Of a DNA stretch of 64,000 nt, positions 15,137 through 29,962 are shown one piece after another. Within the stretch, counting starts at the first letter, position 1. The number at the start of each line of letters is the position of its first letter. Position numbers and translations under genes: made by a program. Below the pieces are notes generated by a model, which saw only the letters and a program-made list of their open reading frames with translations, searched no databases and was not told the DNA's origin. Source of the DNA: an uncultured Desulfobacteraceae bacterium (GTDB lineage: Bacteria; Desulfobacterota; Desulfobacteria; Desulfobacterales; UBA5852); assembly GCA_913060875.1 (NCBI GenBank), contig CAJXSL010000002.1, forward strand, positions 186,001 to 250,000, given 5' to 3'.

Positions 15137-15205
15137 TTATAACGCTAAACTCACCTGATCCGTGGGCTGATAGGCCCTTGGATCAGATGGAGTGACAGGT
15201 TCTGC
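15137..15205 (-). repeat. attC site 3
   Basis: Boxes TTATAAC and GTTCTGC flank the arms CTGATCC and GGATCAG around GGGCTGATAGGCCC. Confidence 0.75.
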
Positions 15206-15216
15206 TCCCCTTACCA

Positions 15217-15678
15217 TTACAATATAGGTTCAGGTATTGGCACTGGTTTATAAGGCTTAAATGGTCCAGCTCTCATACCAGCAAAAAGTATTTCATTACC
15301 ATCATAGAGAAATATGTCTAAGCTGGGGTCAAACTCCGAGTATTTATATTTGAAGATAAAATTGCCATTTTTGATTCGTTGTATCTTCTCTTTAATTCCA
15401 GGCCATTCCTCTGGTTCAGCGCATCTTTGAAAAATTGAAATATGAAATTCTTTTTTACCATTTATTGCTTTCTTCTTTACCCTGACATCGCAAAATGTGT
15501 AATAGCTCCCAGAGGCGTAGAATTCTATTACAACCGTTTCATCCTTTGGCAAATAGTAATACTGAAGTGTATCAAAATGGCGAACCTTTTGAGGTGTTTT
15601 TAGTATCCAACTACAATTCTGTATTACAATTAGCACCAGTCCAATGATAATTATCCGTAAGCAATATCTGTCAGACAT
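15217..15678 (-). CDS. cassette protein, membrane-anchored or secreted, unknown
   Basis: The start is placed at ATG 15678 (MSDRYCLR), because upstream codons of the track ORF run through attC 4. The 153-residue product has one N-terminal hydrophobic segment (IIIIGLVLIVIQNC) ending at a cysteine, compatible with an anchor or a weak lipoprotein signal. The remainder is soluble and rich in aromatic and charged residues, and ends in a proline-rich tail (KPYKPVPIPEP). I do not recognise a domain. The likely location is the envelope. Confidence 0.6.
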   Translation of the reverse strand: MSDRYCLRIIIIGLVLIVIQNCSWILKTPQKVRHFDTLQYYYLPKDETVVIEFYASGSYYTFCDVRVKKKAINGKKEFHISIFQRCAEPEEWPGIKEKIQRIKNGNFIFKYKYSEFDPSLDIFLYDGNEILFAGMRAGPFKPYKPVPIPEPIL

Positions 15679-15712
15679 TTTTTTAGGTCTCACAAAAAAT
15701 GTGTATTCAATT

Positions 15713-15799
15713 GTAGAACGCCCGGCGCGAGCAGCGCCACATAGGTATTTATGGGTAGAGCACATTTTTCTCGCCGTCTGCTCAGGGCCGATGTTAGAT
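15713..15799 (-). repeat. attC site 4
   Basis: This 87-bp site has boxes GTAGAAC and GTTAGAT. The inner arm carries GGCGCGAGCAGCGCC and a longer central stretch than its neighbours. Confidence 0.7.
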
Positions 15800-15821
15800 A
15801 GTTGAAATTTTTTTTGGTATT

Positions 15822-16106
15822 TTATGAATGTGTAATATCGGATTTCGTTTCAAGCGCTACAGCGATTCTTTCTCCAATTCGAATAATCTGCTTTAGGCAT
15901 TGATAGTATAAAACATAAAATATGATGCTTATCATAAAAGGAAACCACGATAATAACAGACTGACATAAAATGGGGTTTCCTCTTCCTGCGACAGCGAAC
16001 TTGCAGCAACATCGTGATTATTTGTATTTGAGAAAATTTTGTACATCATAATGAAAAGAAGAATCGAAACCAGTATCAACAAAAAGGTTTTAGTATTTTT
16101 ATTCAT
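15822..16106 (-). CDS. cassette protein, two-TM, resembles FtsH N-terminal segment
   Basis: This 94-residue protein has a first hydrophobic helix at about 8-24, a short polar periplasmic stretch, and a second helix beginning FYVSLLLSWFPFMISII. The phrase SLLLSWFPF recalls the second transmembrane segment of the FtsH protease, but no AAA or protease domain follows. It could be a stand-alone membrane module that interacts with or mimics FtsH; this is inference from one motif. ATG 16106 has GAAGGAAAC upstream. It forms a single-gene cassette with attC 4. Confidence 0.6.
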   Translation of the reverse strand: MNKNTKTFLLILVSILLFIMMYKIFSNTNNHDVAASSLSQEEETPFYVSLLLSWFPFMISIIFYVLYYQCLKQIIRIGERIAVALETKSDITHS

Positions 16107-16140
16107 AAATTGTTTCCTTCAGGCCTTTTATGTTCATTAA

Positions 16141-16208
16141 ATCTAACGCTCTGGCTTACTGGCGAAGGCCGCGAAGTGGCCCGAATCCTATACAGACGGA
16201 TGTTATAC
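16141..16208 (-). repeat. attC site 5
   Basis: B-type site: ATCTAAC and GTTATAC around CTGGCTTACTGG, GGCCGCGAAGTGGCC and the right arm CCTATACAGACGG with one extra base. Confidence 0.85.
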
Positions 16209-16640
16209 CGTATTTGTTTTATCAATTAGTGCTTTTATGATTTCGGCCCTATCGTTCTTTGTAAAGAACTGCAAAACCAACCTTAATTTCTCATCACCAA
16301 TACATAGTTTCGTATTGTTCGGACCAAAACCTTTGTGTTCGATCGATTTTATTTCACTATAAGAAATCTTCTTTTGCTTATGGCCGCGAATCAATTTTAG
16401 GACGAAATGGTCATCCGCGAACTCAATGAAGGTGATTGTTGGACCTGCATAGGTAAACGCTAAATAGGTTAACAGCATCATTAGAGCGAAAAATGTTATT
16501 GATATGATAATTCCACGAGGATTCTGAAATAATTCTGGCGCGAAAAAAAAGTTAATTAAAATTTGAAGTGCAGCGGCACCTACCAACATAGAAAATATGT
16601 CGCATAGAATCTTTGCTTTGCATATTTGGTAAATTTTCAT
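16203..16640 (-). CDS. cassette protein, two-TM with PH-like C-terminal domain
   Basis: The 145-residue product has two hydrophobic helices (about 15-35 and 45-68) and a C-terminal soluble part of about 75 residues. This part has alternating beta-strands and a final amphipathic helix (FTKNDRAEIIKALIDK), the layout of small bacterial PH-like or DUF304-type membrane proteins. That comparison is structural guesswork. ATG 16640 is close to attC 6. The stop codon TAA lies within the attC box (minus-strand GTATAAC). The function is unknown. Confidence 0.6.
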   Translation of the reverse strand: MKIYQICKAKILCDIFSMLVGAAALQILINFFFAPELFQNPRGIIISITFFALMMLLTYLAFTYAGPTITFIEFADDHFVLKLIRGHKQKKISYSEIKSIEHKGFGPNNTKLCIGDEKLRLVLQFFTKNDRAEIIKALIDKTNTV

Positions 16641-16665
16641 TTTAGATTATTGAGGATATAACGCC

Positions 16666-16751
16666 AAGCTTAGTAGCAGACAGGGCAATACGGAATTCAA
16701 GCCTGTTGCGAGTGCGCCGCCCTGACTGTCTACTACAGTGACAGGTTAAGG
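16666..16751 (-). repeat. attC site 6
   Basis: An 86-bp site with boxes ATATAAC and GTTAAGG; the arms TAGTAGCAGACAGGGC and GCCCTGACTGTCTACTACAG pair almost fully. Confidence 0.8.
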
Positions 16752-17369
16752 AGAAGTCACCTTCGGTGATGACTCCACATGCACGCTTTCAATCATTTGT
16801 TTTGCATCCGCTGGCAATATACCTTCAAATAATTCAATGGGGCCTCGTTCAGAGAACCCTATATCAACTACTCGACCTTGAAATGTTGGATGTACGCACA
16901 TAAAGCCGATGTAGGAGATTTGGTAAGGTTGTCCATTATTATTAAGCAATGTCTTGTCCTGCCCACGGATATCATAATCGATACAAATACCGGCGAACTT
17001 ATCCCTTGGTTTTATATCCTTCTTCTTAATCTCAATCCGTTCTGTTGTCCTGTACTGACTTGAAAGCATCTGGATAAGATCGTCAACATTCTCTATATCG
17101 GCGGTTGCGGTGGATAAGCTCACATCGACAAAAATTGAATGCTCAGAAGAAGATGTATCACGACGGATAATGCAATTTTCAGCATACTGCTCAGAGACAA
17201 TGGCGTACCAATCGTTGTTCTGAGGTTTGGCAATAGAAAATCCCCTATACTGTAACCTTTCCTCCATATGATATGGACGAACTTTATTCGGTCCAAAATA
17301 TCCTGGTGCACTTACACATCCCCCAATAAATACGAAAAAAATAAGAGCAATAATGACCTTAATTTTCAA
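16746..17369 (-). CDS. cassette lipoprotein, unknown
   Basis: This 207-residue predicted lipoprotein has a signal with a basic start (MKIK), a hydrophobic core and lipobox FIGGC (Cys18). The mature part has a beta-rich pattern with several aromatic positions and no recognised motif. It includes a short cysteine-bearing stretch (GICIDYDIRGQ and later IGFMCVHP). Its general shape resembles small periplasmic proteins that accompany stress or envelope functions. The stop codon is within the attC 6 box GTTAAGG. It is a single-gene cassette. Confidence 0.65.
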   Translation of the reverse strand: MKIKVIIALIFFVFIGGCVSAPGYFGPNKVRPYHMEERLQYRGFSIAKPQNNDWYAIVSEQYAENCIIRRDTSSSEHSIFVDVSLSTATADIENVDDLIQMLSSQYRTTERIEIKKKDIKPRDKFAGICIDYDIRGQDKTLLNNNGQPYQISYIGFMCVHPTFQGRVVDIGFSERGPIELFEGILPADAKQMIESVHVESSPKVTSP

Positions 17370-17377
17370 TATTGGCT

Positions 17378-17450
17378 CCTTAACGGTTAGCTTGAGAAAA
17401 ACATATGAAGCATGGCGAAGTATGTATCCTCCTCAAAGCTTAGGTTAGAT
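17378..17450 (-). repeat. attC site 7
   Basis: Boxes CCTTAAC and GTTAGAT; arms AGCTTGAG and CTCAAAGCT around a loop containing CATATGAAGCATGGCGAAGTATG. Confidence 0.75.
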
Positions 17451-17463
17451 GTTGTGTTTTCAT

Positions 17464-17973
17464 TTATGGAGCGAACCATCCTTGAGGCGTATAAAATACA
17501 GAGGTTTCCAATTGGCATTCATCAAACGATTTATTTAGTTCGGATAACAATGATCCGGTTAATGATTTTGTGAATTCAGTTTCTCTTTTTGATCCGGCTA
17601 TATCTTTCACGTTAAATCTAACAATTTTATAATCTGTACTGACGGAAAGCTTTACAAAAACAGGTGTTTCAAATAGTTTTGTAGATCTTGAGTAAGTGGC
17701 GATATTTTTATACTCTATACCGTCAATTTCATAATAAAAAAAACCCCTTTCATCCTTTCTCATCCCATATTTTTCTGCAATTTTATCTATGGCTTTTAAT
17801 GCGTCGTAAAAAGCTGAATATTTTGTTTCATCGATTTCAGAGATATCGGTCTTTTCACAAAATAGAGAAGTATCTATTGTTATCAAATTATGATGATACC
17901 AAGTTAGCGCACAACTGTAAGTCGCAGATAGAATAAAAAAAAATAAAACAAATCTAATGAAATAATAATTCAT
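17464..17973 (-). CDS. cassette protein, exported, unknown
   Basis: ATG 17973 (MNYYFIRF) is preferred to the track start, giving a 169-residue product with a typical export signal ending near YSCA, which could be either a signal peptidase site or a poor lipobox. The mature region has an amphipathic helix (DALKAIDKIAEKYGM) and beta-strands. No known domain is recognised. The gene is followed by attC 7 and has attC 8 upstream. Confidence 0.6.
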   Translation of the reverse strand: MNYYFIRFVLFFFILSATYSCALTWYHHNLITIDTSLFCEKTDISEIDETKYSAFYDALKAIDKIAEKYGMRKDERGFFYYEIDGIEYKNIATYSRSTKLFETPVFVKLSVSTDYKIVRFNVKDIAGSKRETEFTKSLTGSLLSELNKSFDECQLETSVFYTPQGWFAP

Positions 17974-18090
17974 TATAAGCCGACCATTTAGGCGATCTAT
18001 CATATGAAGTACTCTATGGTATGGCAGTAGGGAGTGTTCGAATCAGCATAATTCCAGTTGCATCAACTTTGAACTTCTTAGTGCTATGGA

Positions 18091-18162
18091 ATCTAGCGTC
18101 TAAGTTGAGGCGTGGGAAACGCGTGAGCGTTTCCCCGTCGGATTTCCAGCTCCAGGTTATAC
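18091..18162 (-). repeat. attC site 8
   Basis: A-type site with box ATCTAGC (one change from RYYYAAC) and GTTATAC; the long stem has GGGAAACGCG and CGTTTCCCC. Confidence 0.75.
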
Positions 18163-18169
18163 CACGTCT

Positions 18170-18559
18170 TTATTGTTTCGTTGGCTTCTTAAATATTTGG
18201 ATCCCGAAATATCTCGCTAAGACCTCATATGATAAAAGCAGGATAAGAAATACAAAGGTTCCCTCTAATAGCCAATCAGCCAACTCTATCCAATTAAATG
18301 CTCCTATTTTTCTGTATGGCACATCAGTTTCATTCAAGTATGTTTACAGATTAATTTTAGAACTGAAAAAATGTCCAAAGATAAAAAGTCCACCCATGAA
18401 ACTACCGGCCCCAACAAAATAATTTGGGAGATTATATTCGATAGGGTTAGAGCAGTATTTACATTTACTTGGGCGCATTCCTGGACCAAAACCCATAAAA
18501 AAGGTTCTCAGAAAGGAAGCCGCCTTTTTATTGCAGTATGGGCATCTTACAGCCTGCAT
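18170..18559 (-). pseudogene. cassette gene, zinc ribbon plus membrane helices, in-frame stop
   Basis: From ATG 18559 the frame encodes a zinc ribbon (CPYCNKKA and CKYCSNPIEY) and a membrane helix (GAGSFMGGLFIFGHFF), then hits TAA at 18344-18346. The same frame stays open for a further 57 codons (TYLNETDVPYRK to IFKKPTKQ), including a second hydrophobic helix (LLEGTFVFLILLLSYEV), up to TAA at 18170, eight bases before attC 8. The simplest reading is a roughly 129-residue protein broken by one nonsense change. Alternatives are a true 71-residue protein with a separate downstream ORF, or a sequencing error. It resembles other zinc-ribbon membrane cassettes in this array. Confidence 0.65.
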
Positions 18560-18573
18560 TTTTACACCATGAG

Positions 18574-18636
18574 GTATAACGACCGAGCTGAGACGCGCGG
18601 GTTTTGCGCGTCGGATTCTCAAGCGAAATGTTATGT
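18574..18636 (-). repeat. attC site 9
   Basis: A-type site, 63 bp: GTATAAC, AGCTGAGACGCGC, GCGCGTCGGATTCTCAAGC, GTTATGT. Confidence 0.85.
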
Positions 18637-18648
18637 AAAAAGTCCTAT

Positions 18649-19248
18649 TTATTTTGATATAACTATTTTATTCCATGGGACCAAGATACTATATGGAAGT
18701 TTCTCATTGCTATATTTTTGGATTTTATTTTCCAATTTCTCGCACAAGCATTTCATTAATTCAACACCACTTGGTTGTAGCAGCAAGCATAGGATCAATA
18801 TGCGCTCTTCGTTCAGAAAAAGAACTATCGCGTTTTCCCGTGCAATCAAATTCAATCTTCCAAGGTCGTGAATGTTAAAAATATTAAATATCTTTTTTGA
18901 TTTATAAGAGGTTGGAAGTCCAACAACTATTTTCCGTATAGAATCGAATGGAATCTCAATATTTCTATTTTTACCTCCCAGTAATTTGTCATGGGTAAGA
19001 TACCAGTAGTATTTATTAAATACGTGGGAACAAAATGTCACACTAAGGATTGCTGTAACAATAAAGCATGCAAGAAATACCTGTATATTTAACTCTTGCT
19101 GAATATTCTCAATACCTGAAGTTCCAAGCAGGCCGAGTATCACATTACAGGTTATTCCACCGAAAACTAATCCACCAAATAAAATAGCAATTCCGTAGGT
19201 GAGATACATTTCTTTATTTGATGGTTTGACTTGAATAGGTATCATCAT
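18649..19248 (-). CDS. cassette protein, two-TM with PH-like domain
   Basis: This 199-residue protein has a short polar N-terminus and two hydrophobic helices (about 17-42 and 55-75). The soluble C-terminal half opens with YYWYLTHDKLLGGKNRNIEIPFDSIRKIVVG. A strand pattern followed by a C-terminal helix is typical of bacterial PH-like domains of the YdbS/bPH2 sort. It parallels the 16203-16640 cassette in layout but not in obvious sequence. It is probably an inner-membrane protein; the role is unknown. Confidence 0.6.
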   Translation of the reverse strand: MMIPIQVKPSNKEMYLTYGIAILFGGLVFGGITCNVILGLLGTSGIENIQQELNIQVFLACFIVTAILSVTFCSHVFNKYYWYLTHDKLLGGKNRNIEIPFDSIRKIVVGLPTSYKSKKIFNIFNIHDLGRLNLIARENAIVLFLNEERILILCLLLQPSGVELMKCLCEKLENKIQKYSNEKLPYSILVPWNKIVISK

Positions 19249-19264
19249 ATAATAGTATTAAGAT

Positions 19265-19334
19265 ACATAACGTTTCTGATTACCTATCGATATGAAGCAC
19301 AGCGAAATATCGATTATGGTGAAGCAGGTTGTTC
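19265..19334 (-). repeat. attC site 10
   Basis: Boxes ACATAAC and GTTGTTC; arms TATCGATAT and ATATCGATTATGG. The upstream gene's reading frame runs 15 bases into it. Confidence 0.7.
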
Positions 19335-19943
19335 TGCAAGACCTAACCTTTCAATCTCTAATATCTTTATTAGCCATGCTTTAGTTTCATTGCCACCAGA
19401 ATGATTTCGACGTAGTACAAATTTTACAATAGCAGAATTCGTTCTATAGAATGCGGTGTAGCCTTCTCTTCCGAATTCCATTTGTAACCTATCTCCGTAC
19501 GCATCGATAATATCTTGTAAATTTGAATCGGCGTTAATTCCGTTGCTAAAAGACCAATCAATTTCACTAAACACAATATTGGATGGCAAATTGTTTGTTA
19601 CATATAAATCGATTATTACTGGGTGTCCTATTCTGACACCAGAAAGTCTATGCTTGTAAAAGAAAAAAAGGTGCGTTTGGCCATACAGCATTGCAGTAGA
19701 TGTACTGCTAAATCTAAAGTATCCATTTGGCTCCCCGAACATCTGCTTGAATTTCGATTCATTGGTTCCAATCGGAATATCATAAATATGCAAATCGGGA
19801 TCAATTAAATTGGTATCTAACTCTGTCTTTTTTAAATTAGAATTGAATTCTGTATTGCGGGTTACAGAACTCCCAAAGGTTGGAAATATCAGTAAGCTGG
19901 AAATTATAAATAAATTTATTACAAATGATTTATATACTCTCAT
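19314..19943 (-). CDS. cassette protein, secreted, unknown
   Basis: The 209-residue product has a clear signal peptide (FVINLFIISSLLIFPTFGSS). The mature part has IPIGTNESKFKQMFGEP, a pattern reminiscent of the SmpA/BamE-type 'G-x-[ST]-x-x-x-[LV]' start of small envelope proteins, then beta-strands; this comparison is tentative. The C-terminal residues are encoded by attC 10, since the ORF continues past the core box before its stop. The likely location is the periplasm. Confidence 0.6.
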   Translation of the reverse strand: MRVYKSFVINLFIISSLLIFPTFGSSVTRNTEFNSNLKKTELDTNLIDPDLHIYDIPIGTNESKFKQMFGEPNGYFRFSSTSTAMLYGQTHLFFFYKHRLSGVRIGHPVIIDLYVTNNLPSNIVFSEIDWSFSNGINADSNLQDIIDAYGDRLQMEFGREGYTAFYRTNSAIVKFVLRRNHSGGNETKAWLIKILEIERLGLAEQPASP

Positions 19944-19962
19944 ATTCGCTAATTATTCATTT

Positions 19963-20028
19963 GCAGAACGATTGAATTAAGGGGTTGGGCGTGCTTTTGC
20001 CCAATCCCTCTTAAATAATTTGTTATCC
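19963..20028 (-). repeat. attC site 11 (of hicAB cassette)
   Basis: Boxes GCAGAAC and GTTATCC; stem ATTAAGGGGTTGGGC and GCCCAATCCCTCTTAAAT, with the extra base on the right arm. This shows the site points to the minus strand although hicAB is on the plus strand. Confidence 0.85.
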
Positions 20029-20043
20029 GAACTCTCTAAAATA

Positions 20044-20077
20044 TTGACATTTTCCGCATAGTGTGTATTGTTACACA
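20044..20077 (+). promoter_or_regulatory. hicAB promoter with operator-like inverted repeat
   Basis: TTGACA (20044-20049), a 16-bp spacer and TATTGT (20066-20071) form a promoter. The inverted repeat TGTGTA-TTGT-TACACA (20062-20077) covers the -10 element. The expected start of transcription is only one or two bases before the hicA ATG, so the mRNA may be leaderless. Confidence 0.65.
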
Positions 20078-20079
20078 TC

Positions 20080-20268
20080 ATGGATAGCCGGTCAATTATC
20101 AAAATTCTCAAACAGAATGGGTGGCAAAAAATCGCAACCTCTGGATCTCACACACAATTTCGGCATCCAAAAATAAAGGGCCGGGTGACAGTACCTCACC
20201 CTAAAAAGGACATACCGATTGGTACTCTAAAAAGTATCGAACGCCAATCGGGCATTAAGTTTAATTGA
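20080..20268 (+). CDS. hicA: HicA family mRNA interferase toxin
   Basis: ATG 20080 is chosen over the upstream TTG of the track. The 62-residue toxin has the double-stranded-RNA-binding-like HicA fold. The catalytic histidine is His24 in TSGSHTQFRHP, and the typical PHPKKDIPIGTLKSI follows. It cleaves mRNA independently of ribosomes in characterised homologues. No Shine-Dalgarno sequence precedes it, in keeping with a leaderless transcript. It is the first gene of a two-gene cassette whose orientation is opposite to the array. Confidence 0.93.
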   Translation: MDSRSIIKILKQNGWQKIATSGSHTQFRHPKIKGRVTVPHPKKDIPIGTLKSIERQSGIKFN

Positions 20269-20276
20269 GGTGCGAT

Positions 20277-20693
20277 ATGGCAAACTATTTAGCAATCGTT
20301 CACAAAGATTCCGATAGCGATTTTGGTGTTTCTTTTCCAGACTTTCCAGGTTGTGTAACAGCCGGCCAGAACATCGATCAAGCTAAAGACATGGCACAAG
20401 AGGCTATCATCCTCCATATCCAGGGTATGCTCGAAGATGGAGAGCGATTACCAGTTGCCTCTAAACTTGAAGAAATTATGGCCGATAGTGATTTCTCTGA
20501 TGCAGTGGCATATTTAGTCGTTAGCGTTCCTGACGCTAAGCCTCGCACAGTTCGGGTTAATATCACTCTTCCCGAAATGACCCTTAAACAAATTGACGCT
20601 GTCGCGAAACGGCGTGGTATGTCCCGGTCTTCATTTTTAGTTCACGCTGCTCAAAACGCGATCCAGTCAAACCATTCAGAAGCATCAGTATAA
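20277..20693 (+). CDS. hicB: HicB family antitoxin
   Basis: The 138-residue antitoxin starts at ATG 20277, eight bases after the hicA stop, with GAGGTG upstream. The N-terminal half is the degenerate RNase H-like HicB fold (VSFPDFPGCVTAGQNIDQAKDMAQEA). The C-terminal part (RTVRVNITLPEMTLKQIDAVAKRRGMSRSSFLV) is a ribbon-helix-helix DNA-binding domain. It should neutralise HicA and repress the promoter by binding the operator-like repeat. The order toxin then antitoxin is normal for hicAB. Confidence 0.93.
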   Translation: MANYLAIVHKDSDSDFGVSFPDFPGCVTAGQNIDQAKDMAQEAIILHIQGMLEDGERLPVASKLEEIMADSDFSDAVAYLVVSVPDAKPRTVRVNITLPEMTLKQIDAVAKRRGMSRSSFLVHAAQNAIQSNHSEASV

Positions 20694-20701
20694 TTTCTTT
20701 C

Positions 20702-20771
20702 GGATAACGACCAAGCTGAGACGCGCAAAACGCGCTAGCGTTTTCGCGTCGATTCCAGTGCAAGGTTAGCG
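20702..20771 (-). repeat. attC site 12
   Basis: A-type site, 70 bp: GGATAAC, AGCTGAGACGCGCAAAACGCG, CGTTTTCGCGTCGATTCCAG, GTTAGCG. Confidence 0.9.
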
Positions 20772-20773
20772 GG

Positions 20774-21198
20774 TCATATTTTATAATTTATGCCGAACTC
20801 ATACCCACCCATAGTTTGACCGTTAAAATATTCTTCAGAAACTCGTAACAGTTTAAGTGCTGGAATCAATTCTCCTGCAACCGCTTTATCTCTATAGAGG
20901 TATAATACCACTACAAATAGGCCTGCTACGGCATTCAAAGCATTTTTCAAATTTCCATTGTGATAGTGGGTATGTCGTTGGTGCTTGATCTTGATTTTGG
21001 GTCTAATTTTTTGCAAATTTGTTTACATACAACATCAACTTCTGCCGATGCTGCCATTAGTAATCGCGAAATCTCAATAGAAAAACACTGAAAGTTATCT
21101 TTGTGCAACTCGACAAATCGAGAAACGGTTTCTAAATCATTCTCAATTGATAAAAGGTAGTTCCAGTGCGTTTCGATTTTTTCAGAATGAATTCCCAT
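20774..21198 (-). pseudogene. cassette gene with deletion and frameshift
   Basis: Two overlapping frames look like parts of one protein. Frame one (start 21198) encodes HWNYLLSIENDLETVSRFVEL through AASAEVDVVCKQIC and ends after PTITMEI. The second frame (to 20774) encodes IKHQRHTHYHNGNLKNALNAVAGLFVVVLYLYRD and a C-terminal tail. From memory, a family of roughly 200-residue hypothetical proteins has an HWNYF...EVDVVAK block and, much later, a KVKHxR...NLKNALNAVAGLF block. Here the two are fused out of frame with the middle missing. A deletion that also shifts the frame explains this best. Two independent small genes are less likely. Confidence 0.6.
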
Positions 21199-21208
21199 TA
21201 TTTTTACT

Positions 21209-21276
21209 CGCTAACGCCTTGGCTTACTGGGGAGGGCCGCGAAGTGGCCCGAATCCAATACAGCCAAAGGTTATGT
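21209..21276 (-). repeat. attC site 13
   Basis: B-type site, 68 bp: CGCTAAC, TTGGCTTACTGGGGAGGGCCGC, GCGAAGTGGCCCGAATCCAATACAGCCAA, GTTATGT. Confidence 0.9.
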
Positions 21277-21603
21277 TTTCCTGATGGATTTTAATTCTGG
21301 GTTTCTTTCATAAAAACCATGTAGTTCTTCTAATTTGTTGCTGCATTTTGGACAAACATCACTTTTTAATGTTGTCCTTAAGTAAGTTTCTAAGCACTTA
21401 CCACAGATTAAATAATCATTAGCAGATTTTTTATTTCTATTTTTCAATGTAATTGTAAGGTGAAATACGCCGATTAGAACGAGTAATATTCCAGCAATTT
21501 TTGGGACAGAAAATCCATATAGGTAAGTCCATCCAATTTTGTAAAAGTGGTAACCACCCCAAATGACCCCAAGGCCCATAATGATATTAAGAAATATTTT
21601 CAT
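21271..21603 (-). CDS. cassette protein, two-TM plus C-terminal zinc ribbon
   Basis: The 110-residue product has two hydrophobic helices (about 4-22 and 34-52) and a cytoplasmic C-terminus with paired cysteines (ICGKCLETY and VCPKCSNKL) that should bind one zinc ion. It is one of several cassettes here that join short membrane helices to a zinc ribbon. The stop TAA is inside the attC 13 box GTTATGT. The function is unknown. Confidence 0.65.
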   Translation of the reverse strand: MKIFLNIIMGLGVIWGGYHFYKIGWTYLYGFSVPKIAGILLVLIGVFHLTITLKNRNKKSANDYLICGKCLETYLRTTLKSDVCPKCSNKLEELHGFYERNPELKSIRKT

Positions 21604-21607
21604 TGGA

Positions 21608-23413: not shown

Positions 23414-23423
23414 TCTATGGTTG

Positions 23424-23494
23424 GCATAACGGTTGAGCTGTGGGGCGGTAAATGCGACAGCATTTATCCGTCACACACAAGTGATTTGTTATGC
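23424..23494 (-). repeat. attC site 18
   Basis: Boxes GCATAAC and GTTATGC with arms GGTTGAGCTG and CACACAAGTG; centre GGGCGGTAAATGCGACAGCATTTATCCG. Confidence 0.8.
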
Positions 23495-23499
23495 CCTGC

Positions 23500-23919
23500 T
23501 CAATTTAATGTTTCTTTGACAGACTCTCTCATTAATAAATGAATCCAGAAATAGAACCACAAACAAATAAGTGGAAATCCCAAATAGGCGATTGGTGGTG
23601 GAGAAAATATTAAGAAGGCCCAAACAGAGAGCACAAGGCTGAAAATAAAGTCAATGCACAATATGATGATCCCGATTTGCTGAGCCCATATTTTTCGGAG
23701 AATCAGTGTTACTGCGGGTATGAGATAAAAAACAAGATAGATTTTTTTCAGATAAAAAATCGAATAAAATAATCCGGAATTACCGCCGATCTCGGAAATG
23801 TTAGGGATTGGATCAAATAGTAGTGAATAAAAACCAATCAAGCCTTCAATACTAAAATAAATGATTAATGGTATTATGCAAAACGGGATTCTTGATTGGT
23901 TAGCGAGGCTATTTTCCAT
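23500..23919 (-). CDS. cassette protein, four-TM membrane protein, unknown
   Basis: ATG 23919 (MENSLANQ) is preferred, as GGAAAGGGAAA stands directly upstream; the longer track ORF runs through attC 19. The 139-residue product has hydrophobic helices at about 12-30, 52-72, 80-102 and 106-128, with a YFSIEGLIGFYSL start. No conserved motif is recognised. The likely location is the inner membrane. Confidence 0.6.
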   Translation of the reverse strand: MENSLANQSRIPFCIIPLIIYFSIEGLIGFYSLLFDPIPNISEIGGNSGLFYSIFYLKKIYLVFYLIPAVTLILRKIWAQQIGIIILCIDFIFSLVLSVWAFLIFSPPPIAYLGFPLICLWFYFWIHLLMRESVKETLN

Positions 23920-23939
23920 TTTCCCTTTCCGATTTGGAG

Positions 23940-24007
23940 GCATAACGCCCCGGCTTACTGGTGAGGGCCGCTTGGCGGCCCGAATCCAATACAGCCGGAT
24001 GTTATAT
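23940..24007 (-). repeat. attC site 19
   Basis: B-type site, 68 bp: GCATAAC, CCGGCTTACTGGTGAGGGCCGC, GGCGGCCCGAATCCAATACAGCCGG, GTTATAT. The extra base in the right arm (ATACAG against TTACT) fixes the orientation. Confidence 0.92.
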
Positions 24008-24316
24008 GCCAGAATTCGTTTTTTTATATTCAACTACATCGTTTCTAAACAATAACCCACCACAATGCTGGCACCTTTGGGTACTACCATCCACAATAAA
24101 CTCTTGTACTCCACACTCTGGGTGGCACACAGCATGTGCAATGTGAATTTTGTTAGGAAATTCTATTCCGGTACTTTCGGGATAATCATTTGGCTCATTA
24201 TTCCATCGTGCCAATGATTTTAGATTAAGTATGAAGGATTCCCGATCGCGCGAGTTTTTTAACTCTGAAAATCGATTCTCAATATCTCTAAAGTATTTTT
24301 GCAGTTCTATTTTCAT
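24002..24316 (-). CDS. cassette protein, small zinc-binding protein, unknown
   Basis: The 104-residue soluble product has an N-terminal helical part (YFRDIENRFSELKNSRDRESF) and then cysteine/histidine motifs (HAVCHPECGVQEF and TQRCQHCGGLLF) consistent with one zinc site. The C-terminus is basic. The stop TAA lies in the attC 19 box GTTATAT. No family is recognised. It may be a nucleic-acid or protein-binding zinc ribbon. Confidence 0.6.
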   Translation of the reverse strand: MKIELQKYFRDIENRFSELKNSRDRESFILNLKSLARWNNEPNDYPESTGIEFPNKIHIAHAVCHPECGVQEFIVDGSTQRCQHCGGLLFRNDVVEYKKTNSGI

Positions 24317-24329
24317 TTTTTATAAGAGC

Positions 24330-24399
24330 ATATAACGTCCAAGCTGAGACGCGGAAAACGCGCCAGCGTTTTCGCGTCGATTCCAGCGCCAGGTTATGC
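24330..24399 (-). repeat. attC site 20
   Basis: A-type site, 70 bp: ATATAAC, CCAAGCTGAGACGCGGAAAACGCG, CGTTTTCGCGTCGATTCCAGCG, GTTATGC; spacer 6 on the left against 5 on the right. Confidence 0.92.
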
Positions 24400-24792
24400 T
24401 TAATTATCTATATTCTTTACCCTCCTATAGATTTCTATAGGCAAAATACTTACAATAACTAAAATAATGGCTATATATCCGGGCATACCATGGCCATAAA
24501 AATGAGGCCAACCCATAATTGCCGAACCTCCTGTGAACAATATGCCGTAGGTTGTAAACCACCAACCCCAATAGTAACCAGACGCTTTGAACATATAAAA
24601 TGTCATAATCCAGGTAGCAATTGACCAAGTAGCGAATGAGCACATCAGAAACAAATTTATAGATATTCTCCAACGTTCAATTAACAATTTGTCAAATAGT
24701 AAAACGATGGCAATACAGATAGCCATATATATTAAGCCAGCCCATACATAGGTCGAGACTATTTTTCTTTCTGTATCTTTATCCATAGGCAT
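24400..24792 (-). CDS. cassette protein, four-TM membrane protein, unknown
   Basis: The 130-residue product has a short charged N-terminus (MPMDKDTERK) and hydrophobic helices at about 12-32, 42-64, 72-92 and 100-118. Aromatic-rich loops (KASGYYWGWWFTTYG and GWPHFYGHG) hold histidines. No motif identifies the family. It is presumably an inner-membrane protein. The stop is directly at the attC 20 edge. Confidence 0.6.
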   Translation of the reverse strand: MPMDKDTERKIVSTYVWAGLIYMAICIAIVLLFDKLLIERWRISINLFLMCSFATWSIATWIMTFYMFKASGYYWGWWFTTYGILFTGGSAIMGWPHFYGHGMPGYIAIILVIVSILPIEIYRRVKNIDN

Positions 24793-24862
24793 AACGTTGC
24801 AAATAACCGGTGCAAATGGAGCGCAGCGGAATTTGCATCCGAGTTAATTTGCTTTGTTAGGT
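24789..24862 (-). repeat. attC site 21
   Basis: Boxes GCATAAC and GTTAGGT; arms GTTGCAAATAACCGGTGCAAAT and ATTTGCATCCGAGTTAATTTGC form a long imperfect stem. Confidence 0.85.
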
Positions 24863-25194
24863 GCTATATATCTATTGTTGGGACCAATACCTCTTTCACA
24901 AACCCAACCTTCTTGAAGAAATGATCGGTAGTAATCATCAAATTCCGATGCATCTTCGTCTTCAAAGGAATACATCCTATTATCTATATTTTCTAATAGA
25001 TCTGTCATGATTTCTATTTCGCCAGATTCCCTATAAGTGACATCTATAACTTTGAATCCGAAATAATCTCCCATCTCAGTGTTCTTGAATTTCACATACT
25101 CACCAATTCTTGGCACTACGGGCATGTCGATTATTTTGGTCAAATGTGCCCATTTCGATTTAGTCGAAAGATAGATATTGAAACGAATTTTCAT
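24844..25194 (-). CDS. cassette protein, soluble acidic, unknown
   Basis: ATG 25194 (MKIRFNIY) is preferred to the track start. The 116-residue soluble protein has a beta-rich N-terminal half (IPRIGEYVKF-like spacing with FGFKVIDVTYRESGEIEI). An acidic stretch (FEDEDASEFDDYY) and a short aromatic tail follow; the tail reaches 19 bases into attC 21. The N-terminal part recalls small proteins annotated only as hypothetical in cassettes. The function is unknown. Confidence 0.58.
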   Translation of the reverse strand: MKIRFNIYLSTKSKWAHLTKIIDMPVVPRIGEYVKFKNTEMGDYFGFKVIDVTYRESGEIEIMTDLLENIDNRMYSFEDEDASEFDDYYRSFLQEGWVCERGIGPNNRYIAPNKAN

Positions 25195-25207
25195 TATAAT
25201 TCCTGAC

Positions 25208-25265
25208 ACCTAACGGTTAAACTTATCATTCGCTGAAAGCGATCTGGTACAGTGATTTGTTATGC
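25208..25265 (-). repeat. attC site 22
   Basis: A short site, 58 bp: ACCTAAC and GTTATGC with loop TTCGCTGAAAGCGA; the arms are weak. Confidence 0.65.
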
Positions 25266-25289
25266 CGTTTTTGCCGTTATTCTTTGAAT

Positions 25290-25769
25290 TTAAAAAGTCT
25301 CGGTATGAATTCTTTTTCCACAATTTTTACATACCGGCGATGTAAAATAGAGTAGTACCAATACGAACAAAATCATCCACATAAAGTCGATCAAAAGAAG
25401 ACCTATGATTATGACGAGGCCCACGATGAAAGCGAGAAACCCAACTGCTGTCGATAATAGCGAAAGCGGCCTCTTATTAGGTTGATACGACCCACAAAAA
25501 GGACAGATAGCAATTTCACATTTTCTGCAATGATTTTTGTGCTTCAACTTCTCGCCACAACCTGGGCACAGGCTTGGCAAACAATCGTTACAAAGGAATT
25601 TCGATGGACCATGAACTAAAAAAACATATACGCCGAGTCCAGCTATTGAAATCATGGAAATTCCGAATAAATAGACCAAAGGAATAGTCAATCCAAAAAG
25701 AATATAGGCCGCGGTATTGCCGTTCAATCCGTCGGTTATTTTTTTACATTTGCTACACGTGACCTTCAC
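25290..25769 (-). CDS. cassette protein, multi-zinc-ribbon membrane protein
   Basis: The 159-residue product alternates zinc-binding pairs and hydrophobic helices. An N-terminal CSKCKK is followed by two helices (about 20-52) and a block of pairs (CNDCLPSLCPGCGEKL, CRKCEIAICPFCG). Two more helices (about 105-145) and a final CKNCGKR close the protein. Four or more CxxC pairs suggest at least two zinc ions. It is the most elaborate of the zinc-ribbon plus membrane cassettes in this array. The function is unknown. Confidence 0.65.
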   Translation of the reverse strand: MKVTCSKCKKITDGLNGNTAAYILFGLTIPLVYLFGISMISIAGLGVYVFLVHGPSKFLCNDCLPSLCPGCGEKLKHKNHCRKCEIAICPFCGSYQPNKRPLSLLSTAVGFLAFIVGLVIIIGLLLIDFMWMILFVLVLLYFTSPVCKNCGKRIHTETF

Positions 25770-25811
25770 GGATCTATCCGGTTTCCATTTCAGTTGTTAA
25801 TTATTTAGCGG

Positions 25812-25884
25812 CATAACGACCAAGCTGAGACGCGGAAAACGCGCCAGCGTTTTCCCGTCGATTTCTCAAGCGCCTTGTTCTGCT
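25812..25884 (-). repeat. attC site 23
   Basis: A-type site, 73 bp: GCATAAC, CCAAGCTGAGACGCGGAAAACGCG, CGTTTTCCCGTCGATTTCTCAAGCG, GTTCTGC. Confidence 0.9.
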
Positions 25885-26321
25885 CTTTCTTGAATTATTT
25901 TTCCAAGCCTGCAACACAACCAACTTCCATCGGGCAAAAATAGTGTCCAATCAGGTTGCCCCTTATATGAGTTAAATGAAGCAACTCTTAAATTTGGTGT
26001 GAGAGAAATCACCAATTCAGGTAGTTTCCCTATAAATTCTATATTTTTAACACTTTCACCAATCAAATGTTTTATTTGGTTCTCAATACGTTGGTAGCTA
26101 CAAAAGCTTCCGAACCAGATTGATCTTGGCTTTTCAACCCTCCAATCACAATCCAACATTAAAGAAAACTCTCCTTGTGGGTGATTTTTTCCACGTAGTT
26201 TTTTCAATTTACCAAATTCTAAAAACAATGCGCTGCCATGCCCACGCCAAACATAACTAATAGGAAGGCCAATCATTGGCTCATACAAATATTTCAAGTG
26301 TGTATGATCTGATTTTTTCAT
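25866..26321 (-). CDS. cassette protein, soluble, unknown
   Basis: This 151-residue soluble protein opens with a basic segment and a conserved-looking IGLPISYVWRGHGSALFLEFG. It continues with beta-strands, including FGSFCSYQRIENQI, and ends PDWTLFLPDGSWLCC plus an attC-encoded tail (ERAEQGA). The closing DWTLFLPDGSW phrase is typical of a family of hypothetical proteins I have seen among cassettes and immunity-like genes, but I cannot name a function. The C-terminal 6 residues are attC-encoded. Confidence 0.6.
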   Translation of the reverse strand: MKKSDHTHLKYLYEPMIGLPISYVWRGHGSALFLEFGKLKKLRGKNHPQGEFSLMLDCDWRVEKPRSIWFGSFCSYQRIENQIKHLIGESVKNIEFIGKLPELVISLTPNLRVASFNSYKGQPDWTLFLPDGSWLCCRLGKIIQERAEQGA

Positions 26322-26324
26322 GAA

Positions 26325-26392
26325 GCAGAACGCTCTGACTTACAGGTGAGGGCCACGTAGTGGCCCGAATCCTTTACAGGCAGTTGTTATGT
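26325..26392 (-). repeat. attC site 24
   Basis: B-type site, 68 bp: GCAGAAC, CTGACTTACAGGTGAGGGCC, GTAGTGGCCCGAATCCTTTACAGGCAG, GTTATGT. Confidence 0.88.
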
Positions 26393-26394
26393 TT

Positions 26395-26706
26395 TTAAGA
26401 CTTTAATTTTGCATGACAGTAAGGACATTTTTTGGGCACAGCCATTAAAAGATTTAGAATGGGTTTTTCACAATTTGGGCATTTAACTTTTCGCAAACTC
26501 ATGCTCCAGTACATACCATTCCCAACCGCAATGACTAAAAGAAGCCAAAAAATATATATCGGCATTCCAATTTTCGCATAAATCCCAGGTAAGATCATAA
26601 ATGCGGCACCTGATATGCAAAAATATTTTATCCTTTTCAGGATATCTGGAATCACTTGCCTTTCCACAGTTTCAGTACAATCAGGTGGATAAGGAGAATA
26701 ATTCAT
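26395..26706 (-). CDS. cassette protein, two-TM plus C-terminal zinc ribbon
   Basis: The 103-residue product has a soluble N-terminus with CTETVERQVIPDILKRI, two hydrophobic helices (about 28-44 and 49-68), and a zinc ribbon (VKCPNCEKPI and KCPYCHAKL). It resembles the 21271-21603 cassette in layout, and the two may play related roles, although their sequences differ. It should be an inner-membrane protein with a cytoplasmic ribbon. Confidence 0.65.
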   Translation of the reverse strand: MNYSPYPPDCTETVERQVIPDILKRIKYFCISGAAFMILPGIYAKIGMPIYIFWLLLVIAVGNGMYWSMSLRKVKCPNCEKPILNLLMAVPKKCPYCHAKLKS

Positions 26707-26764
26707 CCTTTAAATTTCTCGTTTCATTTGTGGGTGCTATATTTCTGCAGAAAAATAATTTAAA

Positions 26765-26834
26765 ACATAACGCCTAAGCTGAGACGCGGAAAGCGCGCCA
26801 GTGTTTTTGCGTCGATTCCAGCGCAAGGTTAGAC
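26765..26834 (-). repeat. attC site 25
   Basis: A-type site, 70 bp: ACATAAC, CTAAGCTGAGACGCGG, TTTTGCGTCGATTCCAGCG, GTTAGAC. Confidence 0.9.
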
Positions 26835-26849
26835 AAATTCCAAAATATT

Positions 26850-27497
26850 TTAATTAATGCTAATGGAATTGATGATGCTCTCGAGCTTGTTTAAGTCAGA
26901 ATCATTTGAATATTTCAAACCAAATATAAGCGCATATCCATTCAAAATAGAAACATACTGCTTTGATCTGTAAATATCACTTCCAAATATGATTTCCGTT
27001 TCTAGTACATCAAATTTTATACTATCAATTTGTACCTCGTAAATTTCGTTTGGAAATGAAAATTCATATTTACTTAATTCCATCATTTTTTTTGTATGAT
27101 AATGGTAATCTTCCCCTTTCACTATGCCGGGGAAGTGGCTAACATTTTCAGCTACAATTAAAAAATGAGGATTCGATGAGACTGGAGATCCTGGAGGATG
27201 CTCAGATAATGAAAACAACTTCAAATTCTTAACATCCACATCATCCACAGCAGCTTGTAGATTTTCATTGTTTTTAAAGGCCATTTTCAACCATTTTTTA
27301 CTTTCTTCTGCACGACTTCTCTCATCAATAACATACCAAGAGCCAGGAAATGGGACCTTTAAATTAAAATAGGTATTGGTATAGACATTTTGGTTTATAT
27401 TCCCAAAATCGATCGCTTTTTTTTGTTTGTTAGCGCAACCCAAAAAATTTAAAATTATTACTGAACAAACTAATATTGACGCCGTTCTCCTTACCAT
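26850..27497 (-). CDS. cassette lipoprotein, unknown
   Basis: This 215-residue predicted lipoprotein has a basic start (MVRR), a hydrophobic core and lipobox NFLGC (Cys21). The mature region begins with a polar linker. It then has FNLKVPFPGSWYVIDERS, a phrase typical of small PsbP/DUF-like beta-sandwich proteins, and further strands. No catalytic motif is visible. It is probably periplasm-facing. It forms a single-gene cassette with attC 25. Confidence 0.62.
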   Translation of the reverse strand: MVRRTASILVCSVIILNFLGCANKQKKAIDFGNINQNVYTNTYFNLKVPFPGSWYVIDERSRAEESKKWLKMAFKNNENLQAAVDDVDVKNLKLFSLSEHPPGSPVSSNPHFLIVAENVSHFPGIVKGEDYHYHTKKMMELSKYEFSFPNEIYEVQIDSIKFDVLETEIIFGSDIYRSKQYVSILNGYALIFGLKYSNDSDLNKLESIINSISIN

Positions 27498-27528
27498 CTC
27501 ACCCCCTTCATTCCTAATATGTTCACAT

Positions 27529-27586
27529 GTCTAACGACTTGGCTTTGTGGAGAGGGAACCGAATCCACAACAGCCAAAGGTTAGAT
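27529..27586 (-). repeat. attC site 26
   Basis: A short C-type site, 58 bp: GTCTAAC, CTTGGCTTTGTGG, CCGAATCCACAACAGCCAA, GTTAGAT; the right arm carries the extra bases. Confidence 0.85.
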
Positions 27587-28075
27587 TGTGGATTTTAAAT
27601 GCTCTCGTATAATTTGTTCAATATGATCCCACTCTTTTGAGTATTTCTCAGCTGGATACGATTCAAGAAATATTGGTTTAATTAGTTTTGCTGCCCAGGA
27701 GTCTGCATCTTTTTGTTCCTTTTTAAATTTTGGGCGTCTAACTATTTTTTGCCCCCTGATTCGGTGGTGGTATACTTCATGGGCCAAGGCTCTTAAAATT
27801 CGCCATGCAATATACATGAGGCTCTTTTTAGCCTCATCTGGCAAATCAGATAATGAATCAAGATAAAATTCTATATTGGCATGTTTAGTTCCATTAATAG
27901 GAATATACCTTGCAAAAGCCTTCGTCTCATTATCTTTATGATAGTCATTGTCGAGAAGAACAATTTTCTTTATCCCTATAAAATGTTTTTGATTAATCTT
28001 GGGAATAAACTCTTCTAAAATAGGTATAGCAGGCACCCATTTAGAATTCTCTCGATTATCTTCAAATTTTACCAT
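27581..28075 (-). CDS. cassette protein with HExxH metallopeptidase-like motif
   Basis: The 164-residue soluble product contains LAHEVYHHRIRGQK, an HExxH zinc-binding signature, followed about 25 residues later by QKDADSWAAKLI. That spacing and Asp/Ala-rich helix recall the third-ligand helix of minimal gluzincin-like proteases (DxxA-type), so a zinc hydrolase fold is plausible. No signal peptide is seen, and it appears cytoplasmic. Possible roles are a toxin, an anti-toxin protease or a regulator-cleaving peptidase; none is demonstrated. The stop TAG/TAA lies in the attC 26 box. Confidence 0.6.
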   Translation of the reverse strand: MVKFEDNRENSKWVPAIPILEEFIPKINQKHFIGIKKIVLLDNDYHKDNETKAFARYIPINGTKHANIEFYLDSLSDLPDEAKKSLMYIAWRILRALAHEVYHHRIRGQKIVRRPKFKKEQKDADSWAAKLIKPIFLESYPAEKYSKEWDHIEQIIREHLKSTI

Positions 28076-28079
28076 TGGA

Positions 28080-28137
28080 ATCTAACGCCAAGGCTTTGCG
28101 GCAAGGGAACCGCGTCCGCAACAGCCGCAGGTTATCG
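28080..28137 (-). repeat. attC site 27
   Basis: A short C-type site, 58 bp: ATCTAAC, AAGGCTTTGCGG, CCGCGTCCGCAACAGCCG, GTTATCG. Confidence 0.85.
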
Positions 28138-28138
28138 G

Positions 28139-28633
28139 CTATTTTATTGATCTGATTTCGGTGGCTTCAAGTTTAGCAAGCAATTCTCTGGCTTTTCGCG
28201 TGTCGCCATTTTTTTCATTCAAATATTTTTCCAATGCTTTCAATAATTCCATTTTTAAATTGAAAAGTTCTTGGCTACGCTTGCCAGTATAATCCGTTAA
28301 GAGTGCATAAGGCAGACCTTCAATCCACGCATCGAATTGGACTGGCTCTCTCTGAAACCAGGCAAAGGTTAAATGGGGACGATGAATAAAGGCTAAGGCA
28401 ATGCTAGGAGCAACTTCAGAGCCAATTGCACCATCACGATATTTCCAGATTTCACAAAGAGTATTTACAACAGGTACAGCTTCGAATTCTGAGCCGTTTT
28501 TTAGAACAGATTCAATTTGCTCAGTATTTTTCAAGTACCATTCGAAATTAGTACTAATGATATTTTCGTCAGCGGCAAAACAAGTGCTCGAAAATATCAT
28601 GATTGCCGATATGATAATTAAGATTCTTTTCAT
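28139..28633 (-). CDS. cassette protein, secreted helical protein, unknown
   Basis: The 164-residue product has a standard signal peptide (MKRILIIISAIMIFSSTCFAA, cleavage near Ala-Ala21). The mature part is helical, with several tryptophans and FAWFQREPVQFDAWIEGLP in the middle and a charged helical tail. No domain is recognised. It is probably periplasmic. It is a single-gene cassette whose stop is two bases from attC 27. Confidence 0.62.
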   Translation of the reverse strand: MKRILIIISAIMIFSSTCFAADENIISTNFEWYLKNTEQIESVLKNGSEFEAVPVVNTLCEIWKYRDGAIGSEVAPSIALAFIHRPHLTFAWFQREPVQFDAWIEGLPYALLTDYTGKRSQELFNLKMELLKALEKYLNEKNGDTRKARELLAKLEATEIRSIK

Positions 28634-28643
28634 TATTTATTAC

Positions 28644-28700
28644 CGATAACGTTGAACTGTGTGGCGTGATTTTAACGTCCGCACCAGTGACAGGTTATAA
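28644..28700 (-). repeat. attC site 28
   Basis: 57 bp: CGATAAC and GTTATAA around GAACTGTGTGGCG and CGTCCGCACCAGTGAC. Confidence 0.8.
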
Positions 28701-28723
28701 GTATTTATGATAGAGACATTAAA

Positions 28724-29434
28724 CTATTTGCCTCTATAGAAATCAAATTGAGCCAAATCGATTTCTTGATTAATAGCGATTTCACAAAAGTTCGTTTCAA
28801 ATTCCATGTCAGGCCAATTAGTTGTAACTTTATGAACCAAATAAGACTGAACATCTATCCAAAGATGATACTCTGTACCAGTTCGAGGATTAACGTCTTT
28901 AATATGGTAACAGTTGTGTCCCCGGATCTCTTCGTTACCTATGATTACAGGCTGATTAGGATTACCAACTAACCATCCATCCGGCTCATCCATCAACAAA
29001 CTTCCTACAATATAGGCAGCCATCAAAGAACTGCCGGTTGCTTTAGAAACTGCCGTGCCTAAACTTTTCTCAATTTCAATTTCACTGCCTGCCTTATCGT
29101 AAGTGCTTTTAGTATAGACGCCATCACTGTTCGACCAAATTACAGCATAATCGGAAAAATCAATCTCCTCTTTTTTTTGGTTTTGGGCAGGTCCCCATTT
29201 AAAAAGGAACCTGTCTGGATTAACAAAGAGCGTATAGAATATAACTTTTTTATTATCAGTTTCTACTACTCCCCAATCTTGGTAAGATTTAATCGTAGAA
29301 TAGATTGTATCAACTTGTTCAAGGATTTTTTCAGCAGATAGTTCTCTGGCATTCTCAGAATGGGCACTTGTACTAATTAAACATAGTATGAATAGAAATG
29401 CGAAAGTATGTTTGAGATGGCGTAAATGTTTCAT
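28724..29434 (-). CDS. cassette protein, LolA-like/DUF2092-like secreted protein
   Basis: The 236-residue product has a signal peptide (FAFLFILCLISTSAHS). The mature sequence has a helix (SAEKILEQVDTIYSTIKSYQDWG) leading to repeated beta-strands and YHLWIDVQSYLVHKV near the end. This is the helix-plus-sheet half-barrel order of LolA and outer-membrane-lipoprotein-carrier relatives. Family assignment is from pattern only. A periplasmic role in binding a hydrophobic ligand or lipoprotein is plausible. Confidence 0.65.
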   Translation of the reverse strand: MKHLRHLKHTFAFLFILCLISTSAHSENARELSAEKILEQVDTIYSTIKSYQDWGVVETDNKKVIFYTLFVNPDRFLFKWGPAQNQKKEEIDFSDYAVIWSNSDGVYTKSTYDKAGSEIEIEKSLGTAVSKATGSSLMAAYIVGSLLMDEPDGWLVGNPNQPVIIGNEEIRGHNCYHIKDVNPRTGTEYHLWIDVQSYLVHKVTTNWPDMEFETNFCEIAINQEIDLAQFDFYRGK

Positions 29435-29440
29435 AGTTTC

Positions 29441-29503
29441 ATATAACGTTGCTTTTCAGCGGGCGCGCGCTTTTTGCGCTCCGCTGCAAAAGCCTTGTTA
29501 GGA
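29441..29503 (-). repeat. attC site 29
   Basis: 63 bp: ATATAAC and GTTAGGA with stem GCTTTTCAGCGGGCGCGCG and TGCGCTCCGCTGCAAAAGC. Confidence 0.85.
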
Positions 29504-29962
29504 ATTTTTCATTTTTTTCCAAGTAGTTGTTCCAGATACAATAAGGCCCTGTTGGTCCACTTGATTCCAAAGGCCTTCGAAGATATCTCTTTCTACATTC
29601 AGCTTTGTGATTCCGCTTCCAGTAAGTTGATTTCTTCCAATTCCTTGAAATGTGAAGGTTAAAAAATTGGATCTTTGGATATAACCGTTCAACAACCAAT
29701 CTCCTATTCCAGGTGTATTTGCACGACCAGTTATTCGTGATCCATTGGTTTTATATATTTCGATCACATCTCTTAGAGCATCGGGGTGATTACCATCGGA
29801 TTTTTCAACATCCCAAATACAATCCCATTTACCAATCAAATCTTTGTTGTTGATTTTTTCCGATGAAAATAATCTTTTTAAATCATCAGTATATGCTTGA
29901 ATAAGCGCCCCAATAATAGCACCAGCAAACCCTATGAGCGCAGCATAGATAGCTGTATCCAT
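29498..29962 (-). CDS. first cassette protein, membrane-anchored beta-rich, unknown
   Basis: The 154-residue product has an N-terminal transmembrane helix (IYAALIGFAGAIIGALIQAY) and a basic spacer (DDLKRLFSS). A beta-rich domain follows, with LIGKWDCIWDVEKSDG near the start, reminiscent of lipocalin-like or small binding barrels in which a Trp follows a GKW motif. It is probably anchored in the membrane. The stop is in the attC 29 box GTTAGGA. It is the first cassette of the array in the direction of transcription and follows a GTTAGGA core 13 bases before the ATG. Confidence 0.62.
   Translation of the reverse strand: MDTAIYAALIGFAGAIIGALIQAYTDDLKRLFSSEKINNKDLIGKWDCIWDVEKSDGNHPDALRDVIEIYKTNGSRITGRANTPGIGDWLLNGYIQRSNFLTFTFQGIGRNQLTGSGITKLNVERDIFEGLWNQVDQQGLIVSGTTTWKKMKNS

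Follow-up and report, generated by a model that had tools for sequence, protein, structure and literature searches.

Arrays of orphan immunity genes have been described at Rhs and type VI secretion system (T6SS) loci of Vibrio cholerae (PMC5361080) and at Rhs loci of Serratia (PMC10539506). The former study likens the process to integrons and states that evidence for an integrase is absent. A precedent for a membrane-acting Rhs toxin is Tse5, an effector whose C-terminus forms membrane pores (PMC10684867). As for integrons, about one third of cassettes encode a signal peptide or a transmembrane (TM) segment (PMC10963911), and archaeal cassettes are enriched in signal peptides (PMC9668308). Here we analyse a window of 64,000 nucleotides from an uncultured Desulfobacteraceae bacterium (C2:186001-250000 of a 5.88-Mb genome, labelled G000), whose relatives assign it to the Desulfobacterota (Thermodesulfobacteriota). 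The window contains an integron cassette array, several cassettes of which encode small membrane proteins with a zinc ribbon. As judged from sequence comparisons, these cassettes are probably orphan immunity genes against membrane-acting Rhs C-terminal toxin domains, captured by the integron. Families are named below after the first coordinate of their window member.

The cassette array

The minus-strand region between 14.6 and 30.0 kb (14600-29990) is confirmed as an integron cassette array, with about 27 attC sites. An attC covariance model (R2) matched nearly every cassette boundary as well as a second array on C4, and had no match in a 320-kb background set drawn from this genome. Classical attC ends are visible in an alignment of 26 sites, and the R- and L-box pairs covary above all shuffles; the known R/L-box pairing was used here, instead of an automatic RNAalifold run that gave no pairs. 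A home-made attC finder was dropped after 154 false matches in 320 kb, and an Rfam scan of the array region returned nothing credible. The second integron of this genome (G000:C4:250857-253205, or L019:15855-18300) has a short array, whose cassettes encode a protein of the 21271 family, a lipoprotein and a protein of the 26395 family.

A cassette family found next to Rhs toxins

Two of the four ribbon families are directly linked to Rhs C-termini by sequence and position, 21271 at many loci and 18344 at one; for a third, 26395, the linked protein is a look-alike. The 21271-21603 (-) cassette encodes a protein of 110 amino acids with two TM helices followed by a zinc ribbon and a GFYERxPELK tail. 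It lies between an attC that closes it (21210-21275 (-), 63.7 bits) and another before it (21609-21690 (-), 20.9 bits, E = 0.03). The AlphaFold2 model (mean predicted local distance difference test score, pLDDT, of 85) has two helices (residues 2-26 and 34-61), followed from residue 64 by ribbon strands that reach a pLDDT of about 90 or more. Foldseek returned mostly zinc-ribbon proteins as best matches to this model, none of them significant.

An initial two-sequence scan of genome contigs gave no match. A profile of the window protein and its 49% identical paralogue on C4 found members in few other genomes, and a six-sequence profile reached 18 loci in the GTDB; there were no relatives in viral contigs. 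Four cysteines are invariant in the alignment of 17 members, which share 21-38% identity with the window protein. With these four conserved positions, two CxxC knuckles and the modelled fold, the family is predicted to form a genuine zinc ribbon. Members occur as cassettes with an adjoining attC in the window, on C4 and at L059, L061, L063, L066 and L067, four of these last five loci coming from Nitrospirota. Several attC matches at L059-L067 are weak when taken singly (E of 0.05 to 4), and the case for them is their regular spacing and strand. The Nitrospirota array at L066 also carries a further cassette for a 2-TM zinc-ribbon protein of different sequence (L066:923-1471 (+)).

At 11 loci (L049, L050, L057, L060, L062, L064, L065, L071, L073, L074 and L179), a 21271-family gene lies directly downstream of an Rhs-type C-terminus, either overlapping the toxin stop codon or within about 20 nucleotides of it. 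In genomes G055 (twice) and G058, a member directly follows an Rhs core protein at its C-terminal end. The core was confirmed by the NCBIfam model TIGR03696 at L057, L062, L065 and L074, and that of L065 is also matched by Rhs shells in the PDB, including Tse5. At L064, five tandem copies of the family follow one toxin open reading frame (ORF), the first through an ATGA overlap, while L060 has two copies with an orphan toxin module between them, so that the second copy again follows a module. A tree of integron and Rhs members suggests three changes of setting; its supported branches force only one, and support is weak overall.

Ala and Gly abound in the toxin tails, which also have stretches of moderate hydrophobicity. 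We built a profile from the tails alone and ran the converse search over 395 genomes of the phylum, which returned seven toxins in five genomes, three of the seven being already in the training set. Each of the four new toxins is followed by a hydrophobic ORF of 67-74 amino acids. None of these four partners has a ribbon, and the 21271 hairpin aligns with two of them (E = 2e-13 and 4e-12, for a search of three sequences). Since toxins found by their tail alone have partners without a ribbon, the membrane hairpin is likely to be the conserved core and the ribbon optional. The ribbon is missing from two toxin-linked relatives, which retain the TM hairpin alone, and so is unlikely to be the active part common to these proteins. 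The family thus behaves like an immunity gene in its place after the toxin C-terminus, in its presence at independently found toxins and in its tandem copies.

In the window genome, the tail profile has no match, and the one Rhs core match has a different tail. The 21271-type toxin tail is therefore absent from a genome with two members of the family, which on sequence grounds would make these orphan immunity genes. A plasmid search found no match for a linked immunity protein or a toxin tail.

Other ribbon families and the L179 locus

A 12-kb contig of a related genome, G408 (L179), brings several of these families together. It encodes six Rhs C-terminal modules with a small membrane protein after each, and three of the six small proteins have zinc ribbons: a 21271-family member after a matching toxin tail, a relative of 18344 and a protein with the 26395 layout. 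The modules preceding the latter two are related to each other, partly through a shared Rhs end. Rhs cores were identified here by motif reading only. The segment L179:5874-12125 is a compact source of undescribed, putative toxin/immunity pairs.

In the window, the 18344-18559 (-) ORF encodes 71 amino acids with an N-terminal zinc ribbon. A TAA follows codon 71, the open frame resumes to 18170, and an attC at 18092-18161 (-) (48.1 bits) closes the cassette. This copy is probably interrupted, as intact relatives (L113:10903-11211 and L179:5874-6185) carry the ribbon followed by two TM segments. In the G135 integron, an intact relative occupies the first cassette position next to intI. The L179 relative, found by a search of the order, is the one member located directly downstream of an Rhs C-terminus, its start codon abutting the stop of the module at position 6186.

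The 26395-26706 (-) cassette, closed by an attC at 26326-26391 (-) (58.7 bits), encodes 103 amino acids with hydrophobic helices and then a zinc ribbon. Relatives are found in the C4 array, in the G135 integron, where an attC follows, and in G232 as a stand-alone gene; a plasmid search found none. The protein at L179:10474-10749 has the same layout and a position after an Rhs C-terminus, and its similarity to 26395 extends over the ribbon only.

The fourth cassette, 25290-25769 (-), is closed by an attC at 25209-25264 (-) (26.9 bits) and encodes 159 amino acids with TM segments and six CxxC motifs. It is included in the immunity interpretation by its layout only and is otherwise unexplained.

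How unusual is the membrane and zinc-ribbon layout?

The original prediction, made from the sequence alone, described four cassettes that combine hydrophobic helices with CxxC ribbons. Three of them have this composition, each as one ORF between its own two attC sites and each with hydrophobic segments and several CxxC motifs (two in 21271-21603, six in 25290-25769 and two in 26395-26706). The fourth, 18170-18559, does not, because of its in-frame stop. The presence of four proteins with at least two CxxC motifs goes beyond composition (0/2000 shuffles). The ribbon cassettes are indeed unrelated in sequence, their profiles aligning over the ribbon only, and we rejected a common origin for the four on the same ground. 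Structure prediction, proposed as a check, agreed with the two helices and ribbon strands of 21271-21603, whereas the model of 25290-25769, predicted from a single sequence, had low confidence (pLDDT 64) and did not resolve the ribbons. A fifth cassette, 24002-24316 (-), had been read as a soluble zinc ribbon. Its product of 104 amino acids is soluble; the zinc site is unproven, with one CxxC, one CxxxC and no Pfam match above the cut-off.

Most cassette products had also been described as membrane, lipoprotein or secreted. This holds relative to the same genome, with 18/28 cassettes against 28/86 size-matched genes called by a simple codon-usage script (p = 0.003), hydrophobic segments being called by a hydropathy threshold, not a trained topology predictor. 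It does not set the array apart, since the cassettes of other integrons show no difference (26/53): membrane enrichment alone is a general trait of cassettes (PMC10963911, PMC9668308). The combination of a zinc ribbon with TM segments is present in 3/28 cassettes, compared with 1/86 small genes of the same genome (p = 0.045) and 0/53 cassettes of other integrons (p = 0.038), a small excess counted post hoc and without correction.

Probable orphan immunity and its alternatives

How could such cassettes serve their bearer? A neighbouring cell would deliver an Rhs protein. The C-terminus of this protein, rich in Ala and Gly and hydrophobic in part, would enter the inner membrane and might form pores there. 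The small immunity protein, as a two-helix hairpin in the same membrane, would bind and block this C-terminus; the Tse5 precedent suggests such an encounter within the membrane. The zinc ribbon would probably face the cytoplasm in an accessory role, stabilising the protein or setting its specificity. A bearer whose own genome lacks the toxin would then be a protected bystander. Because cassette relatives elsewhere adjoin Rhs contact-killing toxins, the array probably stockpiles protection against the toxins of neighbours, and bystander survival would provide a selective reason for storing such cassettes.

Several observations weigh against this interpretation. No toxin partner is visible for five 21271-family members (L058, L068-L070 and L072), and searches with the toxin tails gave no known toxin in Pfam or NCBIfam above the cut-off or in the PDB. 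Nor do the cassette proteins match any Pfam or NCBIfam immunity family above the cut-off. Immunity frequently works against the cognate toxin only (PMC11630599), so that at 30-50% identity a relative may have no present-day toxin to counter. Among the other families, 18344 is interrupted in the window and has its Rhs link from one locus, 26395 is tied to Rhs through sequence similarity in the ribbon alone, and 25290 has no relatives in 297 genomes or in plasmids. Finally, when 65 cassettes of other integrons were scanned against Pfam, there was no immunity family among the matches listed (25 of 56 families). For this reason the immunity idea cannot yet be extended to cassettes in general, and the notion that all cassettes are immunity genes was set aside as unsupported. 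A milder version seems to us rather doubtful: integrons would widely act as immunity banks against contact-delivered toxins, and, across phyla, many of the small sedentary-integron cassettes for membrane proteins and lipoproteins that lack an explanation would be orphan immunity genes traded with Rhs loci.

Could the shared layout mean nothing at all? Small membrane cassettes and CxxC ribbons are both common, and four cassettes with both might be a coincidence noticed after the fact, without any common function. The membrane fraction equals that of other integrons (18/28 against 26/53), signal-peptide and TM enrichment in cassettes is published (PMC10963911, PMC9668308), and the ribbon-plus-TM p-values are only about 0.04 and post hoc. 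Yet other integrons also carry three of the four families as cassettes, and Rhs linkage was seen independently for two, both of them present in one array, L179; this makes coincidence an unlikely account. The original prediction proposed a common advantage, such as membrane signalling or defence. The layout itself holds up and is seen again in other integrons. Defence, against Rhs-type toxins of other bacteria, is the best reading of it; phage defence and membrane signalling are not favoured. A scheme in which the small membrane proteins are abortive anti-phage effectors, with the ribbon as sensor, can draw on the ThsB-TIR and AbiU2 cassettes in other integrons of the phylum. Small TM effectors are also known from anti-phage systems. 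However, PADLOC models did not match the ribbon cassettes, these are single-gene cassettes without a partner sensor gene, and the relatives with an informative context adjoin Rhs toxins; we therefore find this explanation very improbable.

We give equally little credence to a role in membrane signalling or in metal or redox sensing, where the ribbon would sense zinc or thiols, the helices would act as an anchor and the advantage would come under stress. A sensor could plausibly combine a zinc ribbon with adjacent TM helices, and the ribbon cysteines are invariant in the 21271 family, but two toxin-adjoining homologues of the hairpin lack any ribbon, and sensing leaves the toxin linkage unexplained. 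Small 2-TM proteins can themselves be toxic, and the presence of HicAB and YefM/YoeB toxin-antitoxin cassettes in the same array could suggest that the hydrophobic proteins act as toxins or keep the array stable as addiction modules. This would hardly fit single-gene cassettes without an antitoxin partner, and at Rhs loci the genes follow the toxin, in tandem copies, as immunity genes do; it is highly unlikely in our view. Orphan immunity to Rhs toxins is thus the interpretation that we retain as probable.

Loss of the integrase and other cassettes

No functional intI adjoins the array. The window holds two remnants of its ends: a 3' end with an adjoining attI-like stretch at 30139-30268 (-), 75% identical to the end of the C4 intI, and part of the 5' region at 30753-30875 (-), 69% identical to the corresponding C4 region. 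Between them, an ORF at 30305-30733 (-) of the 23S rRNA-intervening-sequence type (23S-IVP/bAvd-like; PF05635, E = 6e-36) occupies the place expected for the middle of intI. The C4 intI, on the same strand as its cassettes, has one in-frame TGA. Cassettes of such a fixed array could still be protective if they are expressed; reshuffling by its own integrase is no longer possible.

Toxin-antitoxin pairs lie in the array or at its end, in the opposite orientation to the other cassettes: HicAB at 20068-20693 (+) and YefM/YoeB at 14087-14589 (+). One cassette (20774-21198 (-)) has two overlapping short ORFs and resembles a frameshifted gene, and another (21690-22078) has no evident ORF; gene-less cassettes carrying promoters are known from Vibrionaceae superintegrons (PMC11014356). 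The 27581-28075 (-) product has an HExxH-like motif (HEVYHH) and is possibly a small metalloprotease, with no Pfam match. The first cassette (29498-29962) has no relatives among 277 genomes. Elsewhere, cassettes at L059-L067 and L109-L168 include the ThsB-TIR, AbiU2-HEPN, HepT and PemK/MazF families; phage-defence and toxin-antitoxin cassettes therefore occur in those integrons.

Comparison with known systems

One toxin tail and two putative immunity families are new, in that no Pfam or NCBIfam model above the cut-off describes them. We found no report of orphan immunity genes, or immunity genes of polymorphic toxins, as integron cassettes in the open-access literature. One of the two families is found in attC-bounded cassettes of bacteria from more than one phylum. 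For most integron cassettes no function is known, and a toxin partner would give the families named here a direct, testable one.

The orphan immunity arrays at Rhs/T6SS loci of V. cholerae (PMC5361080) and Serratia (PMC10539506) resemble the window in that immunity genes are kept without a toxin and are kin of real toxin-immunity pairs elsewhere. The acquired interbacterial defence systems of Bacteroidales, mentioned in PMC10470768, are likewise mobile stores of orphan immunity genes, in a different phylum and on a different mobile element. The Rhs/T6SS orphan arrays are located at toxin loci, whereas the window genes are attC-bounded integron cassettes. The Bacteroidales systems are not known to contain attC cassettes.

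On the toxin side, Tse5 and tsi5 (PMC10684867, PMC9637101) offer the same arrangement, in which an Rhs shell carries a membrane-active toxin at its C-terminus and is paired with a dedicated immunity gene. The tails of the linked toxins differ from Tse5 in having no detectable sequence similarity to PDB chains; the tail profile had no match in the PDB, the Tse5 C-terminus included, and the resemblance would be functional only. In the ionophore toxins of contact-dependent inhibition (CDI; PMC11630599), too, the toxin domains act on the membrane, and the cognate CdiI immunity proteins are highly polymorphic. These toxins differ in delivery by CdiA and in their five-helix ionophore domains, and the text searched makes no mention of zinc. 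Finally, the cassettes of sedentary chromosomal integrons (PMC10963911, PMC9668308) are, like those of the window, attC-bounded, mostly small genes of unknown function, and enriched in membrane and exported products. What distinguishes the window is that it holds named families tied to a toxin partner.

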